Assembly: GCF_003946145.1 (NCBI RefSeq)
Contig: NZ_RHOC01000001.1
Span: 310,001 to 374,000 of the forward strand
DNA: 64,000 bases
Source of the DNA: Levilactobacillus huananensis
Lineage (GTDB): Bacteria; Bacillota; Bacilli; Lactobacillales; Lactobacillaceae
Reading direction: 5' to 3'
Position numbers and translations under genes: made by a program. A model generated the notes under the pieces. It was not told the origin of the DNA and ran no database searches. It worked only from the letters and a program-made list of their open reading frames with translations. Position 1 is the first letter of the stretch, and every line of letters begins with the position of its first letter. This document shows positions 3,229 through 37,215 of the stretch, piece after piece.

Positions 3229-4188
3229 ATGAAGACGAAACAAGAGAGCATCTTTTCTTCTAAAACCCTGACGTATTTTCTACAGCTTGCCGAAACTATG
3301 AATTACACGCAAGCTGCTCAAATTCTGGGCATTACCCAGCCGGCGTTAACCCAACAGATTAAAAAGTTGGAACGCACAGTGGGGGCCCCGTTGTTCTATT
3401 CGGTTGGTAAAAAACTTCGCCTATCGGATGCTGGGTACACCATGCTTGATGCCACGCATAAGATTTATGCGATTTTGAATCAAGCCACTGATGAGATCCA
3501 GCAGTCCACCAGTGCAACGCAAGGAGAGATCAACATTGGCCTCCTGGCTTCTATGGAAGATGCTGTTTTTGAGGATTTCGCTATTCTGTCTTACCAGAAG
3601 AATCCGGATGTCAAGATTTCATTCCACATGCTGACCCGTAAAGAAATCTGGGAACGCTTGGAGAATAACAAGATTGACTTGGCGATCATGTATCTACCGG
3701 ATGATTCCATCAAGAATTGGAAACCCTATGAGTCTAAGAAGATTATCTCGGATGACTTGCTGTTTATTCATCACGATGAACGACTTGCAAAGAAACGACG
3801 TATCAAATTTAAAGACACCACTGATCAGGTTTGGGCCATGTACCCTGATGGCTACTACCTGAATCAAACCATTCACGAGGCCTACAAGAACCAGCTGGCC
3901 GACTTTCCGAAAGGCGTCGCTAACTTTACAACGCCGACACAGCTCCTGCATTTTTCCATGCAGACTCAGGCATCCACGGCATTACCAAACTCGTTTATGG
4001 TCGGTCAAGAGGCCCTGCCCCAAACTTGGACAGCCCACTTTGACCCCAACATTCGGTTTGATTTGGCCTTCGTTTTCCGTAAGGGAAAGGCGGAGATCCC
4101 TCGAATCAGCCACTTCCTGGCGCAGTTCGATCAGTATTTAGAAGCTGAGGACTATATTTCACGCCTTAAACATTTGCGTAACAAGTAA
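3229..4188 (+). CDS. LysR family transcriptional regulator
   Basis: A 319 aa LysR-type regulator. The N-terminal winged helix-turn-helix is at residues about 12-70 ([20 protein letters not shown] followed by the KLE-x-x-x-G-x-PLF block). A C-terminal effector-binding domain of about 220 aa follows. The start ATG sits behind AGAAGGAG. It lies alone between parC and the pyrophosphatase gene in the same direction. LysR proteins often regulate a divergent neighbour, but none is present here, so neither the target nor the ligand can be deduced from context. Confidence 0.93.
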
Positions 4189-4222
4189 ACCTAAAAATCT
4201 ATTTGTTAAAGGAGTTTTTTCA

Positions 4223-5152
4223 ATGAGTAAAGCCTTAATTTTTGGTCACCAGAATCCTGATACAGACGCAATTGTTGCTGCTAAAGCATTTGCCTACTAC
4301 CAAACGCAACGTGGTTATGACGTTGAAGCGGTTGCCTTAGGCGAACCTAACATGGAAACCAATTACGTCTTGAACCACTTCGACGAGCCAGCACCACGAG
4401 TCGTTAAGACGGTGTCAAATGAAGTTGACCAAGTCATGTTGGTCGACCACAACGAAGCCCAACAAAGTGTGTCAGACATTGACAAGGTTCAAGTCACTTT
4501 CGTCGTCGACCATCACCGGATCGCCAACTTCCACACTGACGCTCCTCTGTACTATCGTGCAGAACCAGTTGGTTGTGTCAGCACGATCTTAACGGAAATG
4601 TTCGATGAAGCTAAGATTGAAATCCCAGCTAAGTTGGCTGGCTTGATGCTCTCTGCAATCATCTCTGACACCTTGTTATTGCAATCGCCAACCACGACTG
4701 ACAAGGATCGCGAAGCCGTTCGTGCCTTGGCTGAAATTGCCGACATTGACGTTCAAAGCTACGGAATTGCCATGCTTAAGGCCGGTACTAATCTAGCTGC
4801 TAAGAGCGACAAGGAATTGATCGATGGGGACGCTAAGTCCTTTGACATGAACGGTCACAGCGTGCGTATTGGTCAAATCAACACCGTTGATTTGGACGAT
4901 GTCATTTCCCGTCAGGCCGGATTGGAAAAAGCGATGCAAGACGAAATTGCTAGCGAAGGTTACGATTTATTCATCACCTTGGCAACTAATGTCTTGAACA
5001 GCGACTCTGAACTCATCGTTGCTGGTGAACCTAAGACTGTCGTTGAAACTGCCTTTAACACAAAGTTGGCTAACAACCGTGCTAGTCTTCCTGGTGTTGT
5101 GTCACGGAAGAAGCAAGTTGTGCCACCATTAACCGAAGCCTTTAACGCTTAA
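4223..5152 (+). CDS. ppaC: Manganese-dependent inorganic pyrophosphatase (family II)
   Basis: This enzyme hydrolyses pyrophosphate to phosphate in the cytoplasm and so pulls biosynthetic reactions forward. At 309 aa it has the family II (DHH superfamily) layout. The metal-binding motifs GHQNPDTDA at the N-terminus and VDHHR near residue 97 are present. The C-terminal DHHA2 domain ends with the substrate-binding [10 protein letters not shown] segment. The RBS AAGGAG is well placed. A strong terminator follows, so the gene is probably monocistronic or co-transcribed with the LysR gene 34 bases upstream. Confidence 0.97.
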
Positions 5153-5175
5153 TATATCTCGTTAGTCTTGAGATA

Positions 5176-5218
5176 AAACGCTCATTGAAGAAACTATTCT
5201 TCGATGAGCGTTTTTTTT
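5176..5218 (+). terminator. Rho-independent terminator after ppaC
   Basis: Arms AAACGCTCATTGAAG and CTTCGATGAGCGTTT pair almost perfectly around a short loop and run into eight T residues. Confidence 0.93.
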
Positions 5219-5298
5219 CGGTAGGAAAAGCAGACCTTGCTATAATACGGGCCGATGGTAGCCGTTAGGCACATTCCCTTAGAGGAGAGGGATTCTGC

Positions 5299-5877
5299 AT
5301 GACAAGAAGTACATGGTACCGTAAAGCCTTAATAACAGTCGTAACAGTGGGTCTTTTTGTCAGCCAAATTGGGGGGCTTGCTGCTTCAGCCGCAACAACC
5401 ACACCATTCGGGGCGCAGCGGTTCGCAAAAGACCAAGCGACCTATGTGATTTCCACCAAATCGGCTTATTTTAGGTCTATTTGGCGGTCTGCCATCGATG
5501 CCTGGAACGCAACCGGGGCATTCAAGTTTAAGCCTAGTTCTACCAGCAAAGCCCAAATTACTTTGGGGACCGCTTCTAAAAGTGAATCCCAAGCAATGGG
5601 AAACGACGTCGGTTTAACTGAATTCTGGGCCCGAGACAATTACTTTATCTCTGTCCATTCACGACTGAACGCTCGTTTAATTAAGGAATACGATTACTCA
5701 CGGTCTGATGCCATTCACGTGGCCGAGCATGAATTAGGTCACGCCATGGGATTAGCCCACAATCCATCCAAGAAGAGCGTGATGTATTACCGTAACCGTG
5801 CCGTTGGCATTCAGAGAGTGGATATTAACGGTGTCAAAGGGCGTTACCAAACACCCGCTGGGCAGACGACCAACTAG
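5299..5877 (+). CDS. Secreted matrixin-type zinc metalloprotease
   Basis: A 192 aa predicted exported protease. Residues 1 to about 32 form a signal peptide with a basic start, a hydrophobic core (ALITVVTVGLFVSQIGGL) and an AASAA cleavage region. The extended zinc motif HELGHAMGLAH, at about residues 148-158, gives three His ligands and the catalytic Glu. It is followed by SVMYY, which fits the Met-turn of the M10/metzincin family. No wall anchor or repeat domain is visible, so the mature protein of about 160 aa is probably released or loosely wall-associated. It is flanked by terminators on both sides and transcribed alone. The substrate is unknown; the protease class is clear from the motif. 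Confidence 0.9.
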   Translation: MTRSTWYRKALITVVTVGLFVSQIGGLAASAATTTPFGAQRFAKDQATYVISTKSAYFRSIWRSAIDAWNATGAFKFKPSSTSKAQITLGTASKSESQAMGNDVGLTEFWARDNYFISVHSRLNARLIKEYDYSRSDAIHVAEHELGHAMGLAHNPSKKSVMYYRNRAVGIQRVDINGVKGRYQTPAGQTTN

Positions 5878-5893
5878 GGACTTAAACAACTCT

Positions 5894-5932
5894 CAAAAAC
5901 ACCTTGCCGTTACCAATGGTGAGGTGTTTTTG
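5894..5932 (+). terminator. Rho-independent terminator after the metalloprotease gene
   Basis: AAAAACACCT pairs with AGGTGTTTTT across a loop of about 17 bases. The T-rich end serves the plus strand. Confidence 0.85.
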
Positions 5933-6034
5933 TTAGTCATGATTGAATTTTAGAGGCTAATTAATTGCCTTTTATTAGAAAACCTTTAAACTGAGAGAGT
6001 AATAAGTTGTGTACAATCGATTGGAGGAATCCTA

Positions 6035-29241: not shown

Positions 29242-29440
29242 TTCCCCTCACTCCTTTGCTTGTATTGTACAACGATCTGGTTGCTAATCACAAGTCAATT
29301 TGATGACGTTTTTATCTCTTCCGCTAGGGTTTTCGAGGAAAGTTCTTTGCACTTCGTCTAACCGCCCGGTATACTTTAAGTTGTGTCGTTTTATTGAACG
29401 AATTATTCAAGACTCTCTAGATAGAAAGGTGTTGTTCTCC

Positions 29441-31153
29441 ATGTCATTTGACGGATCCTTTACCCACGCAATGGTTCAGGAATTGAGTCAAGAACTCACG
29501 ACTGGTCGTGTAAGCAAGATTAACCAACCATACGCCAACGAAGTCGTCCTCACCATTCGGGCTAACAGCCATAACTATCCAATTCTGTTATCGGCTAATC
29601 CCACCTATGCGCGGATTCAAGTCACGCAGATCCCTTACGTGAACCCACCCGTACCCACTAACTTTACCATGATCTTGCGGAAATACTTGCAAGGGGCAAT
29701 CCTCAAGAACATCACTCAGGTTGCCAACGACCGCGTTGTGCACCTGCAATTTACCTCTCGTAATGAATTAGGTGATCAACAAGATCTTCTCCTTATCATC
29801 GAAATCATGGCACGTCACAGTAACGTTATTTTAGTCGACGGAACCGAGGGAAAAATCCTCGACGCCATCAAACATGTTGGTTCCGATCAAAATCGGTATC
29901 GTTTATTGTTACCAGGGGCACAGTATATCAATCCACCAAAGCAAGATCTCACCGACCCCTTTGATGGCCCCCGTTCTGACTTAGCCGAGACGCTTCGCGA
30001 CTTTCCTAACCAGGAAGTCCTGGCACAAACCTTACAGCATCAATATCAGGGGCTCGGTAAGGATACGGTTGCCGCATTAGCTACTGCCCTCCACCAACCT
30101 GGGGATGTAAATCAACACTTTCGGGACTTCTTCGCGACTTTCGACGCCCCAAAACCAACGTTAACCATTTCACCTAAGGGTAAGACTAGCTTCACGGCCT
30201 TCCCTTACCCCGCAGAGGGATCAACGCGTCAAACCGCGGCCACACTCAGTGAACTCCTCGATACTTACTATCAAGACAAGGCTGAGCGAGACCGCGTTCA
30301 GCAACAAGGAAGTGTGCTGATTCGTGTCGTTCGTAATGAGCTCAAAAAGAATCGGACGAAGTTAAAGAAGCTCCAGCGGACTCTCGCCGATACTGAAAAT
30401 GCTGATGACTATCGCATCAAGGGTGAAATTCTAACGACCTACTTGCATCAGGTCAAACGTGGAGAAACCTCAGTTTCACTACCAAACTTCTATGACGACA
30501 ACAAACCGTTAAAGATCACCCTCTCCAACCAATTGTCACCAAATCAAAACGCACAAAAATACTTCAAACGCTATCAAAAGGCCAAAAATGCTGTTATCTA
30601 CGTTAATGAACAGTTAAAGATCACGCAAGCTAACGTCGACTACTTCGACAACATTATGGCCCAGATCGAACTGGCCGCACCCAAAGATCTCGTGGACATT
30701 CGACTCGAACTTCAACAAGGTGGCTACCTACGTGATCACGATCACTTGAAGAAGTCCAAAAAACAACGTCGGCAAAAGGTCAGCAAGCCTGATCGCTTCA
30801 CAGCAACCGATGGCACGAAGATTTCTGTTGGTAAAAATAATCTGCAAAACGATCAGCTTAGCCTTCACACCGCCAAGCGAACTGATATCTGGCTTCATGT
30901 GAAGGACATGCCAGGTTCGCACGTAATCATTCACGCAGACAATCCAAGTGAAGCGACAATCCTTGAAGCTGCTAATTTGGCAGCCTACTTCTCCAAGGGT
31001 CGTGAGTCGAGCAACGTTCCCGTGGATTATCTCCCCGTAAAACGACTTCATAAACCCAACGGCGCAAAACCAGGGTACGTCATTTTCACTGGTCAACGAA
31101 CAGTCTATGTCACACCGGAAAGCGCTCTGGTGGAAAAGCTCGCCGACAACTAA
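29441..31153 (+). CDS. rqcH: Rqc2/NEMF homologue RqcH, ribosome quality control
   Basis: A 570 aa NFACT protein that binds split 50S subunits carrying stalled chains and adds alanine tails with tRNA-Ala; earlier annotated as fibronectin-binding protein Fbp54. The NFACT-N domain starts MSFDGSFTHAMVQEL. HhH and coiled-coil segments follow (about 290-440), then the NFACT-R domain (RTDIWLHVKDMPGSHVII). I start at ATG 29441, where homology begins; the frame runs back to 29300 without domain sequence. It is transcribed alone between MarR and a terminator. Confidence 0.93.
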   Translation: MSFDGSFTHAMVQELSQELTTGRVSKINQPYANEVVLTIRANSHNYPILLSANPTYARIQVTQIPYVNPPVPTNFTMILRKYLQGAILKNITQVANDRVVHLQFTSRNELGDQQDLLLIIEIMARHSNVILVDGTEGKILDAIKHVGSDQNRYRLLLPGAQYINPPKQDLTDPFDGPRSDLAETLRDFPNQEVLAQTLQHQYQGLGKDTVAALATALHQPGDVNQHFRDFFATFDAPKPTLTISPKGKTSFTAFPYPAEGSTRQTAATLSELLDTYYQDKAERDRVQQQGSVLIRVVRNELKKNRTKLKKLQRTLADTENADDYRIKGEILTTYLHQVKRGETSVSLPNFYDDNKPLKITLSNQLSPNQNAQKYFKRYQKAKNAVIYVNEQLKITQANVDYFDNIMAQIELAAPKDLVDIRLELQQGGYLRDHDHLKKSKKQRRQKVSKPDRFTATDGTKISVGKNNLQNDQLSLHTAKRTDIWLHVKDMPGSHVIIHADNPSEATILEAANLAAYFSKGRESSNVPVDYLPVKRLHKPNGAKPGYVIFTGQRTVYVTPESALVEKLADN

Positions 31154-31296: not shown

Positions 31297-33870
31297 CTAG
31301 ATGGTTCGATTGATGATTCGATCCAGTTCCTCTGTATCACTCAGATTCTGCAACGACAAAGCCTCACTGGAGCCAAATGCGATCGTCGCACCGACTTCCT
31401 GATCGGTCGTCCCTGGTCGATTCAAAACATGCAATTGACGGAATGGAAAGGCAGCATTCATCAGCGCAACCCGTGTACTATTCAGGTCAATTTTAATTTC
31501 GCTGAGTTCCTCATTATCCAAGGTGCCAATGTGCTGACGCGTCAACATTCGAACCCAATTAATCCCAGTAACTTTACTCAAGAAAGCCATTTCGGTCAAC
31601 CGGGTCGGTCGAACCCCTACCACCGTAAGGGCATCGCTCTTGTCTGATTTCGGCGCGAAGAGTACTTGAACCATCCCAGCAATCTGGCGCTCACTTACAG
31701 CTTGCTTGGCCATTTCAACCAATCGAACACGATCGGCCTTAGGCAGCTCAGCGGGCATCCGAAAAGCGGTCACCTGAGCTAGATTCTGATTCATCCCTGG
31801 GGCAATCATATCCATAACCCCCGCCGCAATCTTATGTTGCTCGTGGACAAACAAGCTGACTCCAATCGTCGCACGCTTAGGCTGTGGCTCCCCAGTCTCT
31901 TGATCGGGGGGCAACACATGCAGGTTCAAATCAAGCTTACTCAGCTCTCGTGTCAAGTAATGACGGTTCCCTGGCACGATCACAATGTCGGGATGTTCCA
32001 CCTGAATCACATTACGAACATCCCCTAATTGAATAGGGTCGACATACTGCTTATCGGAGAACTCCGGGGCTACTGCCACGGCATTCGGATTAGTGTTCAT
32101 CAAAATGGTGTGGTAACCCGCACGTTTGAGTTGCTTCAACATTTCTGTTGTAAAGTACTCAGCAGCGGAATTAGGTCCCAACTGGTTTCCGCCTCGGCCA
32201 AGAACTAATGCCGTACGCTCACCCAATGGTTGACTCTCATTTTCAAATTCAAACGTGCTATAGTAGCCACTGGCTTCCTCGTCAAATTCACCCCCGGTGG
32301 GCTCAATCATCTTATAGGTTGGACGAACATCCGCAGAAGCGGACAAGTCACGAATGGCTGCGGTATCTGTTTGCCAGATTCGGGCAATCATCCCATCCCC
32401 AAAGCCATAGTAGCGACCACACTTCAAGGTGTCGACGTCCATCGGATGATCCATGATACGTTTTTCAATTTGTAACAAGTGCTGCAGTTTCACGAAGTAA
32501 AAATTATCAATCTTCGTTAATTCACTCAGTTCGTCGGGATCATATCCCCGGCGTAACGCTTCAATCAGAACCAAAATTCGATTTGCTAGTGGATGAATCA
32601 GCTGACTAATCATTTCACCATCCGTTAAATTGCTAACGCTTGGTAACACATCTCGTGGTGAAAATTGGGAACTTCTAACCGACTTCAGCATTGCCTCTTC
32701 TACCGATCGACCAATGCCCACCGTGGATCCCACGGCCTTCATGGCGGTATTCAGATGTTGATCGGCATCGGGTACCTCTTGAAATGGCCAAATAGGAATT
32801 CGAACGCTCACGTGATCGATGGTGGGCTCCATAATTGCCGTCTGCTTCACATAACGACTAGGAAGTTTGATATCTACCAGGCGCTGCCCCAACATCAGCG
32901 GACCCGCCACCATAGCTACCGGATACCCCGTTGTTCGCGCTGCCAGAGCAACCCCACGCGTGAAATAAGGCGCTAACTTCGTAACATAGAAATGCTGATT
33001 GTCGGGGTTTAGCGCAAAATGAATGTGCATGACCCCAACAATGCCGAGCTCCCGGGCAATGTGGAATGTCGCGTCCCGTAAATCCTGATATTCCCGGTCA
33101 TTTAACGTCTGTGGCGGTGTAATAACAATCGAGTCTCCGGAATGAATTCCCAAAGGATCGACATTTTCGAGTCCGGAAATCAGAATTGTGGTGTCCGCAG
33201 AATCTCGAATAGCGACCATTTCAACTTCTTTGTAACCGACCACACTGCGCTCCAACGTACACTGATCAAATCTTGACTGTTGAAAACCTTGGTTCAAGGC
33301 CACCAACATGTCGTCGACGTTATCACAGATGGTTCGATTGGAGTCGATACGCGGCGCAACTGGCTTCACAATTAGTGGAAACCCAATCGACTCTACCAAC
33401 CCGAGCGCTTCATCTTCGGTCCCAACAATTTGGGCCTCGATGACCGGTTCCTGAATTTCCTTTAATGTCGCATTCAATGCAGCTGGATTGTTAATCTGGC
33501 GAACCGTGCTGGCCGGCATCCCCAAGATAGCAATCCCGAACCGACCGATATCCCCATTTTCAATCAATTCTTGCGTAATTCGGATCGCCAGTAAGCCTCC
33601 CAGACTAGGAAGAATGGCATCTGGCTGGTCACGTTCGATGATGTGGCGGACATTAGCCGTCGTCACCGACTGAACATACATGTTTGTCGGTTGAATCTCC
33701 TCCAAAGCGACAGAGAAGGGATTGTTGTCAATAATCATGGTCTTAATCCCATGACGTTTAAAACTCGTAATAATTTGCACGGTGGCGCTATCTAGCTCAG
33801 TCTCGTGACCAATCTCCGTCGGACCACTCCCAATGATCAAAACCTTTTGTAAGTCATCCAAGTTCTGCAA
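31297..33870 (-). CDS. carB: Degenerate carbamoyl-phosphate synthase large-subunit homologue
   Basis: An 857 aa CarB homologue; active enzymes are about 1060-1070 aa. The first half aligns well (IIGSGPTEIG, SVVGYKEVEM, ENVDPLGIHSGDSIVITPPQ) but catalytic positions are gone: the metal ligands Gln-Glu-Asn (E. coli 285, 299, 301) are His284, Lys298 and Ala300, and the Gly-rich ATP loop is VAPRIDSNRT. The oligomerisation domain remains. The second half keeps a pre-ATP segment, loses about 150-200 residues of ATP-grasp, and has VVGVRPTRLTE for the VIEVNPRASRT motif. The C-terminal MGS-like allosteric domain is absent. Start TTG 33870 follows GGGAGG, two bases after carA. It is unlikely to make carbamoyl phosphate. 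Confidence 0.85.
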   Translation of the reverse strand: MQNLDDLQKVLIIGSGPTEIGHETELDSATVQIITSFKRHGIKTMIIDNNPFSVALEEIQPTNMYVQSVTTANVRHIIERDQPDAILPSLGGLLAIRITQELIENGDIGRFGIAILGMPASTVRQINNPAALNATLKEIQEPVIEAQIVGTEDEALGLVESIGFPLIVKPVAPRIDSNRTICDNVDDMLVALNQGFQQSRFDQCTLERSVVGYKEVEMVAIRDSADTTILISGLENVDPLGIHSGDSIVITPPQTLNDREYQDLRDATFHIARELGIVGVMHIHFALNPDNQHFYVTKLAPYFTRGVALAARTTGYPVAMVAGPLMLGQRLVDIKLPSRYVKQTAIMEPTIDHVSVRIPIWPFQEVPDADQHLNTAMKAVGSTVGIGRSVEEAMLKSVRSSQFSPRDVLPSVSNLTDGEMISQLIHPLANRILVLIEALRRGYDPDELSELTKIDNFYFVKLQHLLQIEKRIMDHPMDVDTLKCGRYYGFGDGMIARIWQTDTAAIRDLSASADVRPTYKMIEPTGGEFDEEASGYYSTFEFENESQPLGERTALVLGRGGNQLGPNSAAEYFTTEMLKQLKRAGYHTILMNTNPNAVAVAPEFSDKQYVDPIQLGDVRNVIQVEHPDIVIVPGNRHYLTRELSKLDLNLHVLPPDQETGEPQPKRATIGVSLFVHEQHKIAAGVMDMIAPGMNQNLAQVTAFRMPAELPKADRVRLVEMAKQAVSERQIAGMVQVLFAPKSDKSDALTVVGVRPTRLTEMAFLSKVTGINWVRMLTRQHIGTLDNEELSEIKIDLNSTRVALMNAAFPFRQLHVLNRPGTTDQEVGATIAFGSSEALSLQNLSDTEELDRIINRTI

Positions 33871-33872
33871 GT

Positions 33873-34949
33873 CTATCCCTCCCGTGCTGTCATTGCTTCC
33901 ATGAATTCATCGAACAAGTCCCGACTCTCGTGGGGACCGGGAGCACCATCTGCGAAGAATTGAACGGAGAACGCCGGAAAATCCCGGTGTCGCAATCCTT
34001 GGACAGTGCCGTTGATCAGGTCAACATAAGTGGTAATTAACCGATTACGATCAATCGACTTGGCCACCACTGCGTAACCCTGACCCTGAGTCGCATAAAT
34101 AATATCATTCGTAATGATTCGGCGAATTGGATGGCTACTCCCATGATATTCCACCGGAAGTGCCGCCAGTGTGGCCCCATTCGCCAGTGCAAAGAGTTCA
34201 TGACCCAATCCGATGGCAAAGAGCGGAATCTCTGCTTGAACCGTACGAATCATCTCCAGCACCCCTTCACCGAGATCTAAAGGTGAACCAGGGCCTGTAG
34301 AGAGCAGAACCCCATCTGGATCCAAATTCAAGACATCCTGAGCACTCGCTGTCCACGGCAATACGGTGACATTACACCGTCTCTCAGACAGTTGCCGTAA
34401 GATACCATGTTTTAACCCAAAATCAATGACCACGACGTTCTTACCGGTATCCGGGTTAGGATACGGCTTTGGTGTCGCTACCTGATCGACTTGCCGATTC
34501 GTCAGAACGGTCGCATTTAGTTGATCAAAGGCATGGGCATCGGCAACGTCGACGATACTTCCCTTGACTGGACCGTCCATCTTCCGCAGCTTGCGAATTA
34601 AGTGTCGCGTGTCAATACCACTAATTCCCGGAATATTGTGCTGCTGAAGAAACTCATCCAGGGATAGGCGGGACAGACGATTGGTCGAGATGTTCGTTAC
34701 ATCTCGCACCACCATCCCCTTAGCCGTGGGCAGAATTGATTCATAACTATCGTGGTTAATACCGACATTACCAATGGCGGGTTGCGAAAAGATAATAATC
34801 TGATTGTGATAAATCTGATCGGTAATCGTTTCCTGATAGCCAAGTAAATTTAAATTGGAAATGACTTCGCCGCTCGTCGTGGCGCCAGCACCAAAACCCT
34901 CACCGGCGTAAGCCGAGCCGTCTTCTAAAATTAAATAGCGTTTTGCCAT
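33873..34949 (-). CDS. carA: Degenerate carbamoyl-phosphate synthase small-subunit homologue
   Basis: A 358 aa CarA homologue of normal length. The N-terminal domain is typical (LEDGSAYAGEGFG, GYQETITD, PGISGIDTRHLIRKLR). The class I glutamine amidotransferase domain keeps its frame (VVVIDFGLKHGILRQL, PGPHESRDLFDEF) but all triad residues are replaced. The GICLGHQ nucleophile motif is AIGLGHE with Gly247, and the YHPEA motif is FFADG with Phe332 and Asp334 for His and Glu. It therefore cannot hydrolyse glutamine by the known mechanism. It lies 23 bases after pyrR and two bases before the carB-like gene, so all three are co-expressed. Confidence 0.87.
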   Translation of the reverse strand: MAKRYLILEDGSAYAGEGFGAGATTSGEVISNLNLLGYQETITDQIYHNQIIIFSQPAIGNVGINHDSYESILPTAKGMVVRDVTNISTNRLSRLSLDEFLQQHNIPGISGIDTRHLIRKLRKMDGPVKGSIVDVADAHAFDQLNATVLTNRQVDQVATPKPYPNPDTGKNVVVIDFGLKHGILRQLSERRCNVTVLPWTASAQDVLNLDPDGVLLSTGPGSPLDLGEGVLEMIRTVQAEIPLFAIGLGHELFALANGATLAALPVEYHGSSHPIRRIITNDIIYATQGQGYAVVAKSIDRNRLITTYVDLINGTVQGLRHRDFPAFSVQFFADGAPGPHESRDLFDEFMEAMTAREG

Positions 34950-34972: not shown

Positions 34973-35614
<642 letters not shown>

Positions 35615-35630
35615 CTATTCTCGTACGTTT

Positions 35631-35659
35631 AGCATAAAAAAACTAGATTGGTTTGTCAA
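35631..35659 (-). promoter_or_regulatory. Predicted sigma-A promoter of pyrR
   Basis: TTGACA (35659-35654) and TATGCT (35636-35631) are exactly 17 bases apart. The -35 lies inside the 3' end of rluD. The leader would be about 115 bases long. Confidence 0.75.
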
Positions 35660-36566
35660 CTGGTAAACCAGCCTGTAACCGCAAGTGCTTAACCGCTGTG
35701 GCAAAATTTGCCGGAACTGGCGCCGTAAAGACCAGTTGTTCACCAGTGGTGGGCTGTTTGAAGCCTAACTCTCTGGCATGTAAGAATTGTCCCGCACCCT
35801 TTAGGGTCTTCTTGGGACCATATAAAGGATCACCCGCGACGGGATGCTTAATGTAAGCCAAATGAACCCGGATCTGATGCGTCCGTCCCGTTTCCAAGCG
35901 ACAGGCAATCAAGGTGTAATTTCCATACCGTTCCAAGACTCTAAAGTGCGTGACGGCGGGTCGACCATCGGCAACCACCGCCTGCTTCTTGCGGTCCTTA
36001 GGCGAACGGCCTAGTGGTGCGCGAATGACCCCTTCTTCTTCTTTAAAGTTACCGTGAACAATGGCCACATATTCCCGCAAGTTGGTCTTGGCCTGAAGCT
36101 GTGCTGAAAGACTTTGATGGGCATGATCGTTCTTGGCAACCATGAGTAATCCCGAGGTATCCTTGTCAATCCGGTGAACGATTCCTGGCCGCAACGTTCC
36201 GTTAATGCTGGAGAGCGGACTATGATACAGGAGCGCGTTCACTAACGTCTTATCTGGATGCCCTGGTGCGGGATGAACCACCATCCCCTGAGGTTTGTTC
36301 ACGACAATCACGTCATCATCCTCATAGACGATGTCTAAGGGAATATTTTCGGCAACGAGATCCAACGGTTGTGGATCAGGGAGACTAATGGTAACTGTGG
36401 CACCCACCGCCGGCTTGTCCTTCGGCCGGGCGTCTTGCCCGTCAACCTTGACTTGACCAGCTTCAATAGCTCCCTTGGCCTGCGATCGTGAAATCGTAGG
36501 TACCGTCTCGGCAACCAATTTGTCTAACCGAGCACTCGCTGTCACTTTAAACTCTTCATTTTGCAT
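35643..36566 (-). CDS. rluD: RluD-type 23S rRNA pseudouridine synthase
   Basis: A 307 aa pseudouridine synthase. The N-terminal S4 domain (residues about 8-70, RLDKLVAETVPTISRSQAKG) precedes the catalytic domain with RIDKDTSGLLMVAK (catalytic Asp) and the ALETGRTHQIRVH-like block. Start ATG 36566 overlaps the lspA stop by one base (TAATG), giving translational coupling. This is the YlyB branch often found between lspA and pyrR in Firmicutes; the exact modified uridines are not established from sequence. Confidence 0.94.
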   Translation of the reverse strand: MQNEEFKVTASARLDKLVAETVPTISRSQAKGAIEAGQVKVDGQDARPKDKPAVGATVTISLPDPQPLDLVAENIPLDIVYEDDDVIVVNKPQGMVVHPAPGHPDKTLVNALLYHSPLSSINGTLRPGIVHRIDKDTSGLLMVAKNDHAHQSLSAQLQAKTNLREYVAIVHGNFKEEEGVIRAPLGRSPKDRKKQAVVADGRPAVTHFRVLERYGNYTLIACRLETGRTHQIRVHLAYIKHPVAGDPLYGPKKTLKGAGQFLHARELGFKQPTTGEQLVFTAPVPANFATAVKHLRLQAGLPVDKPI

Positions 36567-37030
36567 TACTGGGCCTCCCGGCGATCGGCAAGAAAGACGC
36601 CGACCGCGATTAGAATCACGCCAACTGTTAAGCAACTGTCGGCGAAGTTAAAGATTGGAAAATTAATAAAGGTGAGCTGGAACATGTCAACCACGTAACC
36701 ATTCATCAGTCGATCGATAAAGTTCCCGATCGTCCCGGCCATCATCAAGGCCAAACCAAGTTCCTCCACCCAGGACTCCCGCTGGTTGCGGTATTGCCAG
36801 AAGAAGAAGCCCATGATACCCAAGGCGATCACGGCGATGACCGCAAAGAACCACATCTGTCCCTGCAGGATACTCCAGGCTGCCCCATCATTACGCAGAT
36901 GCGTTAGGGACATGATCCCAGGGATGAAGGGCTTCTCACCACCTAACGCGATGTTTAAGACCACCGCGTGCTTGATCCACTGATCAATTCCGACCAGGAC
37001 CACTATTAAAATAATATTGGCAATCAGCAT
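36566..37030 (-). CDS. lspA: Lipoprotein signal peptidase (signal peptidase II)
   Basis: A 154 aa membrane aspartyl protease that removes the signal peptide of prolipoproteins after diacylglyceryl transfer. Four helices are visible. The catalytic aspartates are in GNFIDRLMNGYVVDM and FNFADSCLTVG. Start is ATG 37030 (MLIANIILIVVLVGIDQWIK), where the first helix begins; the frame upstream to 37162 has no domain content. It is the promoter-proximal gene of lspA-rluD and would process the DUF915 lipoprotein encoded in this window. Confidence 0.94.
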   Translation of the reverse strand: MLIANIILIVVLVGIDQWIKHAVVLNIALGGEKPFIPGIMSLTHLRNDGAAWSILQGQMWFFAVIAVIALGIMGFFFWQYRNQRESWVEELGLALMMAGTIGNFIDRLMNGYVVDMFQLTFINFPIFNFADSCLTVGVILIAVGVFLADRREAQ

Positions 37031-37215
37031 AAGTTTATGAAACACCTTTCCTATAAGTCGTTGTTGAAAAGTATACCAGAAAACCGGCGAGTTCGGCGGC
37101 TTCAGACCCAGAAAAGTTCGGGAAAAGAGCCGATTGGGAAAGTCATTCGCACTGCTACCCATTTGTGGCCCTGTACACCCTCGCCAAACGCTGGTTTAAT
37201 ACCATTCTATACGAT

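Follow-up and report, generated by a model that had tools for sequence, protein, structure and literature searches.

Pseudoenzymes that act as allosteric partners form a general class of proteins, in which catalytic residues are lost while the fold is kept under strong selection. One regulator that matters here is PyrR2, whose gene, when deleted in the original 2006 work, reportedly left cells in need of high CO2 or of both arginine and pyrimidine. In excerpts of two further papers, PyrR2 of L. plantarum is described as a pyr regulator linked to inorganic carbon (PMC3582564), and pyrR2 (lp_1782) as reduced 2.1-fold by butanol in one strain, with no change in the other (PMC7911632). These excerpts name PyrR2 and do not mention the pair of dead carbamoyl-phosphate synthase (CPS) genes described below, and the passages of the literature covered hold no explanation for the tie of L. 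plantarum PyrR2 to inorganic carbon. Among the literature matches listed, there was neither a paper on the dead pair nor an example of a CPS pseudoenzyme; key subscription papers outside this scope may mention the pair.

A pyrR-linked CPS pair in Levilactobacillus huananensis

The window analyzed here, a stretch of 64,000 nucleotides of the Levilactobacillus huananensis genome, carries homologues of both CPS subunits, carA' and carB', directly behind pyrR. The order is lspA, rluD, pyrR, carA', and carB', all on the minus strand, and then a convergent fbpA/rqcH-type gene.

31297..33870, minus strand: carB', dead homologue of the CPS large subunit, 857 aa, TTG start; domains are pre-ATP-grasp, ATP-grasp 1 with ligands lost, D3, and a collapsed second synthetase half, with MGS absent
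33873..34949, minus strand: carA', dead homologue of the CPS small subunit, 358 aa
34973..35506, minus strand: pyrR (pyrR2 type), 177 aa, ATG at 35506
35507..35645, minus strand: leader between rluD and pyrR, containing a GC-rich hairpin conserved within Levilactobacillus
35643..36566, minus strand: rluD-type pseudouridine synthase, given from its ATG, with the frame open upstream to 36635; conserved upstream neighbor
36566..37162, minus strand: lspA frame, conserved neighbor that marks the ancestral pyr locus
29300..31153, plus strand: fbpA/rqcH-type gene, convergent, downstream of carB'

carB' is present in all 15 Levilactobacillus genomes drawn, including that of the window, at 84 to 100% identity, and the closest named loci are those of L. 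paucivorans and L. humaensis, with a CarA' identity of 100%. The window PyrR passes NCBIfam NF003548 (267.9 bits versus a cut-off of 218). The leader hairpin is possibly an attenuator or expression element; one of its 19 predicted pairs has a two-sided change, a weak covariation, and an Rfam scan of this leader gave no family match. By eye, an upstream ACGGG could pair with CCCGT of the hairpin in an attenuator-like manner.

Both subunits have lost their catalytic sites

We set 27 dead copies against E. coli CarAB and against homologues of the working type from the same order (30 for CarA and 29 for CarB). In the window CarA', Gly247, Phe332, Ile46, and Glu251 stand in place of E. coli Cys269, His353, Ser47, and Gln273, respectively. 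Cys269, the glutaminase nucleophile in E. coli, and His353 are gone from all 27 dead copies and present in 31 of 31 controls; Ser47 is changed in 27 and Gln273 in 25 of the 27. The window CarB' has Lys298, Ala300, and Tyr302 at the positions of Glu299, Asn301, and Arg303, which are intact in 30 of 30 controls and which in E. coli serve as Mg ligands (Glu299 and Asn301) and as part of the bicarbonate site (Arg303). Arg129, Gly176, Glu299, and Arg303 are missing from every dead copy, with Glu299 replaced by Lys in 24 and by Arg in 3, and Asn301 and the Gly-rich loop vary from copy to copy. At the second site, Arg675, Arg715, and Leu756 are gapped and Glu841, Asn843, Arg845, and Arg848 are absent, in 27 of 27. 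The same loss of Cys269, His353, Glu299, and Arg303 is found in a wider set of 50 dead copies, and the catalytic residues are retained in every working-type control compared. The MGS domain gives no Pfam match in the window CarB', and the best superposition on CPS stops at CarB residue 933, with the fold retained over residues 3 to 933. A preliminary description of this DNA had read carB' as a truncated 857-aa homologue in one open frame, with a dead first ATP site (including Lys298 and Ala300), a gutted second ATP-grasp, and no C-terminal MGS domain; all of these readings, now placed on the minus strand, agree with the comparison.

At 166 CarB positions conserved at 95% or more in the controls, that residue is kept in less than one-fifth of the dead copies, 62 positions are conserved alike in dead copies and controls, and others have become near-invariant in dead CarB' (e.g., Gly179 to Arg). 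CarA' has a newly conserved block at about residues 131 to 153. Its monomer model, of middling confidence (pLDDT of 73 and TM of ~0.5 to CPS small subunits), was left out of the interface analysis; pLDDT is below 50 at residues 139 to 167, and the newly conserved block, poorly placed in this model, might be interface-like.

The window CarB' fails TIGR01369 (555.2 bits versus a curated cut-off of 1027; the L. plantarum and L. brevis copies score 582.5 and 550.1 bits), and CarA' passes TIGR01368 (324.6 bits versus 307.35). That CarA' clears the NCBIfam cut-offs for the CPS small subunit could be taken to mean that the pair still makes carbamoyl phosphate, but the nucleophilic Cys, the Glu299 metal ligand, and the second ATP-grasp site are all lacking, and the window's genome has no ATCase or OTCase match (PF02729), hence no carbamoyl-phosphate user by this measure. 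Continued synthesis is scarcely credible, and the pair, judged by its sequence, should be unable to make carbamoyl phosphate.

Parts of the first ATP pocket remain in CarB', namely, Glu215 in 25 of the 27 dead copies, His243 in 24, and Lys or Arg at position 169 in all. Because Lys or Arg stands at both 299 and 169 and because Glu215 and His243 are mostly retained, the pocket looks as if it had been remodeled for metal-free binding of a phosphate group. The same remnants, together with new near-invariant positions such as Gly179 to Arg, might also point to a new catalysis, with the rebuilt first ATP-grasp site serving, e.g., as another ligase, kinase, or ATPase. Against this stand the Lys or Arg at position 299 throughout, the variable Asn301 and Gly-rich loop, and the absence of Arg129 and Arg303 from all 27 copies, and we consider new catalysis unlikely.

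One origin and a place inherited from the pyr operon

A profile of the degenerate C-terminal part of CarB' was run on 301 Lactobacillaceae genomes, and the matches were split by eye into dead (best E value no worse than 2.3e-22) and not dead (no better than 2.7e-14, or no match at all). By this split, 174 of the 301 genomes, from 21 of 40 genera, carry dead CarB; an additional dead-copy fragment in G261 (1.1e-16) lies outside the 174. The residues were verified in 17 of the 21 genera; for g2, g7, g8, and g39, the assignment comes from the profile and short open frames, and the genus names of g3 and g6 were taken from similar named loci. The named sequence sets, each with the window added, comprised 57 of 78 usable carB' sequences (set A4) and 43 of 80 carA' sequences (set A5). 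In an order-wide search of 295 genomes, 247 of them non-family, no non-family small subunit like the dead ones was found among the matches listed, where non-family matches reach 536.2 bits at most and 22 of 23 dead copies score at least 578 bits. The pair is likely absent outside Lactobacillaceae, although one dead copy (G026) scores only 515.6 bits in the same search. In the CarA tree, which took in 27 of the more than 100 dead copies, these form one clade (SH-aLRT of 99.7). Eight genera are represented by two or more copies, which group by genus in seven of them, whereas the two g20 copies are unresolved. One clade and genus-wise grouping indicate that the dead pair has one origin and descended mostly vertically.

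The gene order is equally readable across named loci: lspA-rluD-(pyrR)-carA' and an intact carB' are seen in 77 of 80, and the exceptions are L087 and L137, cut by contig ends, and the broken L098. A readable pyrR is in place at 73 of the 80, across genera, with gaps of 18 to 46 nt between pyrR and carA' (73 loci) and of -23 to +36 nt between carA' and carB' (78 loci). Pair-less relatives were read at nine loci chosen for a known place of carA or carB (five from Lactobacillaceae and four from other families, with active-site residues verified in five of the nine). All nine show rluD-pyrR-...-carA-carB, with lspA in view in eight and with 3.5 to 3.9 kb from pyrR to carA. The live pyr genes of pair-bearing genomes, where read, lie elsewhere (e.g., in G227 and G111). 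Since the pair occupies the place of the working pyr operon in relatives, pyrR-carA'-carB' is best seen as a remnant of the ancestral pyr operon, still in its original position, a conclusion supported by sequence, synteny, tree, and model.

In one genome, a full-length pyrR-carA-carB set lies only ~4 kb from the dead pair (L231, 2965 to 15153). In the divergent genus g28 (L241, 5001 to 9172), pyrR-carA'-carB' is present without a neighboring lspA or rluD being found.

Purifying selection on open reading frames

Both carA' and carB' are under strong purifying selection, on par with neighboring housekeeping genes. From pairs with a dS of 0.15 to 1.2 among 28 to 30 Levilactobacillus sequences per gene, the median dN/dS is 0.018 for carA' (71 pairs) and 0.017 for carB' (21 pairs), with 0.020 for the most degenerate part of carB'; the values for pyrR, rluD, and fbpA are 0.023 (52 pairs), 0.021 (27 pairs), and 0.030 (25 pairs), respectively.

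The great majority of the dead carB' copies listed have open frames of about 820 to 900 aa. Stop codons occur inside 18 dead-copy matches; because 16 of these have open frames of 814 to 906 aa, the stops there probably sit at the match ends, and the C-terminal stretch is stop-free in 16 of those 18 genomes, the other two being absent from the listing. Sporadic frameshifts across relatives, which the preliminary description had said would count against its reading, are largely lacking, with one broken carB' (L098) and one running off its contig (L137) at the 80 named loci. The former, in a draft of Secundilactobacillus similis (3466 to 5984), is spread over several frames; lspA is also split there, and the breaks are possibly draft errors. 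At an Apilactobacillus micheneri locus (L129, 9441 to 9955), pyrR is in two frames, and carA' and carB' are open.

Decaying pseudogenes would be expected to show the lost catalytic sites and domains, the several frames of L098, and the short carB' frames of G165 and G295 (~720 aa), but a dN/dS of ~0.02 and long open frames in most listed copies are at odds with decay, which we reject on the dN/dS as next to impossible. Judged by sequence and fold, the pair is a pseudoenzyme, with catalytic residues lost and with frame and fold kept under purifying selection; the earlier idea of a paired pseudoenzyme thus gains from site loss in all copies examined, a single CarA' origin, a fixed order, and strong purifying selection.

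Carbamoyl-phosphate supply in pair-bearing genomes

We scored two CarB candidates per genome, with "no full CarB" defined as a best E value other than 0. CarB is over the cut-off in 236 of the 301 genomes. No full CarB is found in 63, 39 of which bear the pair; two of the 39 (G291 and G295) have partial CarB matches, leaving 37 pair-bearing genomes without full CarB, some of them incomplete drafts (lowest completeness of 87%, 91%, and 93%). A real CarB is present alongside the pair in 135 of the 174 pair-bearing genomes. Within Levilactobacillus, 14 of 15 genomes have no full CarB: 13 of the 14 others and that of the window, where the second, normal carAB that the preliminary description had proposed to look for was not found. 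No other CPS-type CarB domain protein is encoded in the latter genome, in which two further matches, in frames of 389 and 385 aa, are weak. Of the 37, at least 12 are also without an ATCase/OTCase match, as counted from 20 listed of the 25 match-less genomes. Retention of the pair without full CarB or ATCase/OTCase speaks for a function distinct from supplying carbamoyl phosphate, which the pair can hardly do.

The fold kept over CarB residues 3 to 933 and the frequent company of a real CarB would allow the pair to tune or chaperone the genome's real CPS via mixed assembly. Yet the 37 genomes without full CarB include the window's own and 13 other Levilactobacillus genomes, and the pair is selected in this genus as strongly as neighboring housekeeping genes, which makes mixed assembly quite improbable. 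Regulation of a live CPS is disfavored as the common role by the same 37 genomes.

PyrR and its RNA elements

PyrR is found in 49 of 49 pair-bearing genomes scored; as a count within pair-bearing genomes alone, this is not an association test, and the nine pair-less loci read also have pyrR. The 49 were chosen from the 174 to include genomes without neighboring pyrR or real CPS, and the PyrR set also took in G174 (76% complete), where no dead CarB was found. PyrR2 differs from other PyrRs at six diagnostic positions (3, 9, 10, 48, 144, and 159; 67 module sequences versus 21 others), and with only six, no clear sign of a new interface is seen on PyrR.

PyrR-type RNA elements occur in all 20 Levilactobacillus genomes scanned, half of which (10/20) have one above the Rfam cut-off. 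At the 31 element loci read, what follows is a nucleoside deoxyribosyltransferase and/or NCS1 permease in 17 cases, a uracil permease in 7, a second pyrR in 2, and no gene of these kinds in 5. The window's genome has two RF00515 matches, both under the cut-off of 54 (53.1 and 42.7 bits, with E values of 1.6e-6 and 1.4e-4), which precede the deoxyribosyltransferase-NCS1 pair and uracil permease. One lies before a nucleoside deoxyribosyltransferase and an NCS1-type permease at L036 (1501 to 3106), a salvage operon that is probably under PyrR control in Levilactobacillus. At L203, L213, L216, L217, and L219, elements precede genes matching none of four queries, and further targets may exist. The Lactiplantibacillus module leader is weakly attenuator-like; the two scanned loci score 26.4 and 30.9 bits, under the cut-off of 54. 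PyrR accompanying the pair and elements before uptake genes make PyrR-centered control of pyrimidine acquisition the likely setting of the pair.

A possible regulatory role

With moderate confidence, we propose that the pair is a regulatory pseudoenzyme module. Inferred to partner with PyrR, it would modulate the control that PyrR exerts on pyrimidine genes, which in the window's genome would be uptake genes. Sequence, synteny, tree, and model support an ancestor in which the middle of the pyr operon was lost and both CPS subunits shed glutaminase and synthase chemistry while retaining CPS architecture. CarA' and CarB' may still assemble, and the first ATP-grasp pocket, with Lys or Arg for the metal ligand, may hold a nucleotide, PRPP, or carbamoyl phosphate. 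This ligand state could be reported to PyrR via contact and alter its action on attenuator RNAs. PyrR targets in the window's genome would probably be the nucleoside deoxyribosyltransferase and NCS1 permease, and the uracil permease. The targets in L. plantarum would be pyr genes, on which PyrR2 reportedly acts together with inorganic carbon.

Alternatively, the pair could scaffold or regulate a target that has nothing to do with PyrR, its pyrR neighborhood being simply inherited. At Paucilactobacillus (L111, L119, L121, and L123) and Limosilactobacillus (L134 and L142) loci, pyrR is missing beside the pair. The PyrR tree, which has many long branches and low resolution and was used only for placing such copies, groups the PyrR copies of the corresponding Paucilactobacillus- and Limosilactobacillus-like genomes with the pyr-operon type; thus, the pair there appears to have outlived PyrR2 and to serve PyrR1 or something else. 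This persistence favors an unrelated target, as does the ancestral locus, because of which the linkage is partly inertia. The tight pyrR-carA' spacing at 73 of 80 loci across genera and the presence of PyrR in every pair-bearing genome scored speak against it, and we regard an unrelated target as rather doubtful. A regulatory or scaffold role with PyrR, which the preliminary description had raised in part, is a plausible proposal.

The same description had suggested sensing, on the ground that CarB binds bicarbonate and nucleotides. The ground for this idea is weak here, with Arg303 gone and Lys or Arg at 299, while Glu215, His243, and Lys or Arg at 169 are mostly still present. Because Arg303 is lost in 27 of 27 copies, the old site is unlikely to sense bicarbonate. 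A tentative and rather doubtful extension of the PyrR-modulating module is that the dead CPS acts as the sensing component of a two-part RNA regulator and tells PyrR2 of inorganic carbon or energy supply; a former consumer of bicarbonate, ATP, and glutamine, which once fed the PyrR-controlled pathway, would then have been kept for control of pyrimidine uptake even without the pathway.

Comparison with known systems

At the L. plantarum locus (L109), the genes are arranged as in the window (lspA-rluD-pyrR-carA'-carB'). The PyrR encoded there groups in the tree with the module PyrRs of other Lactiplantibacillus loci and presumably is PyrR2 (lp_1782). The CO2 idea of the preliminary description gains from this context, since the L. 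plantarum dead pair lies directly behind the presumed pyrR2, though the ancestral bicarbonate site is gone. A dead CPS in the pyrR2 operon is an obvious and directly testable candidate for the missing inorganic-carbon sensor. Unlike in the L. plantarum PyrR2 system, the window's genome is without full CarB and without ATCase/OTCase. CarA' clears the cut-offs by which an active subunit is annotated, so Levilactobacillus may be given, in metabolic models, a carbamoyl-phosphate synthesis that most of its genomes seem to lack.

Compared to CarAB/PyrAaAb (TIGR01368 and TIGR01369; E. coli 1BXR family), the pair is homologous over CarA and CarB residues 3 to 933 and has the same order, but it lacks Cys269, His353, Glu299, Arg129, Arg303, the second active site, and the allosteric MGS domain. 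It shares site and flanks with the PyrR-regulated pyr operon of Firmicutes, from which it differs in the missing 3.5- to 3.9-kb pyrR-carA stretch and in the inactive CPS. Compared to the general class of pseudoenzymes that act as allosteric partners, the pair differs in that the two subunits of a heterodimeric enzyme went dead jointly, an unusual case in which a central enzyme became a pseudoenzyme as a whole and was then retained across 21 genera.
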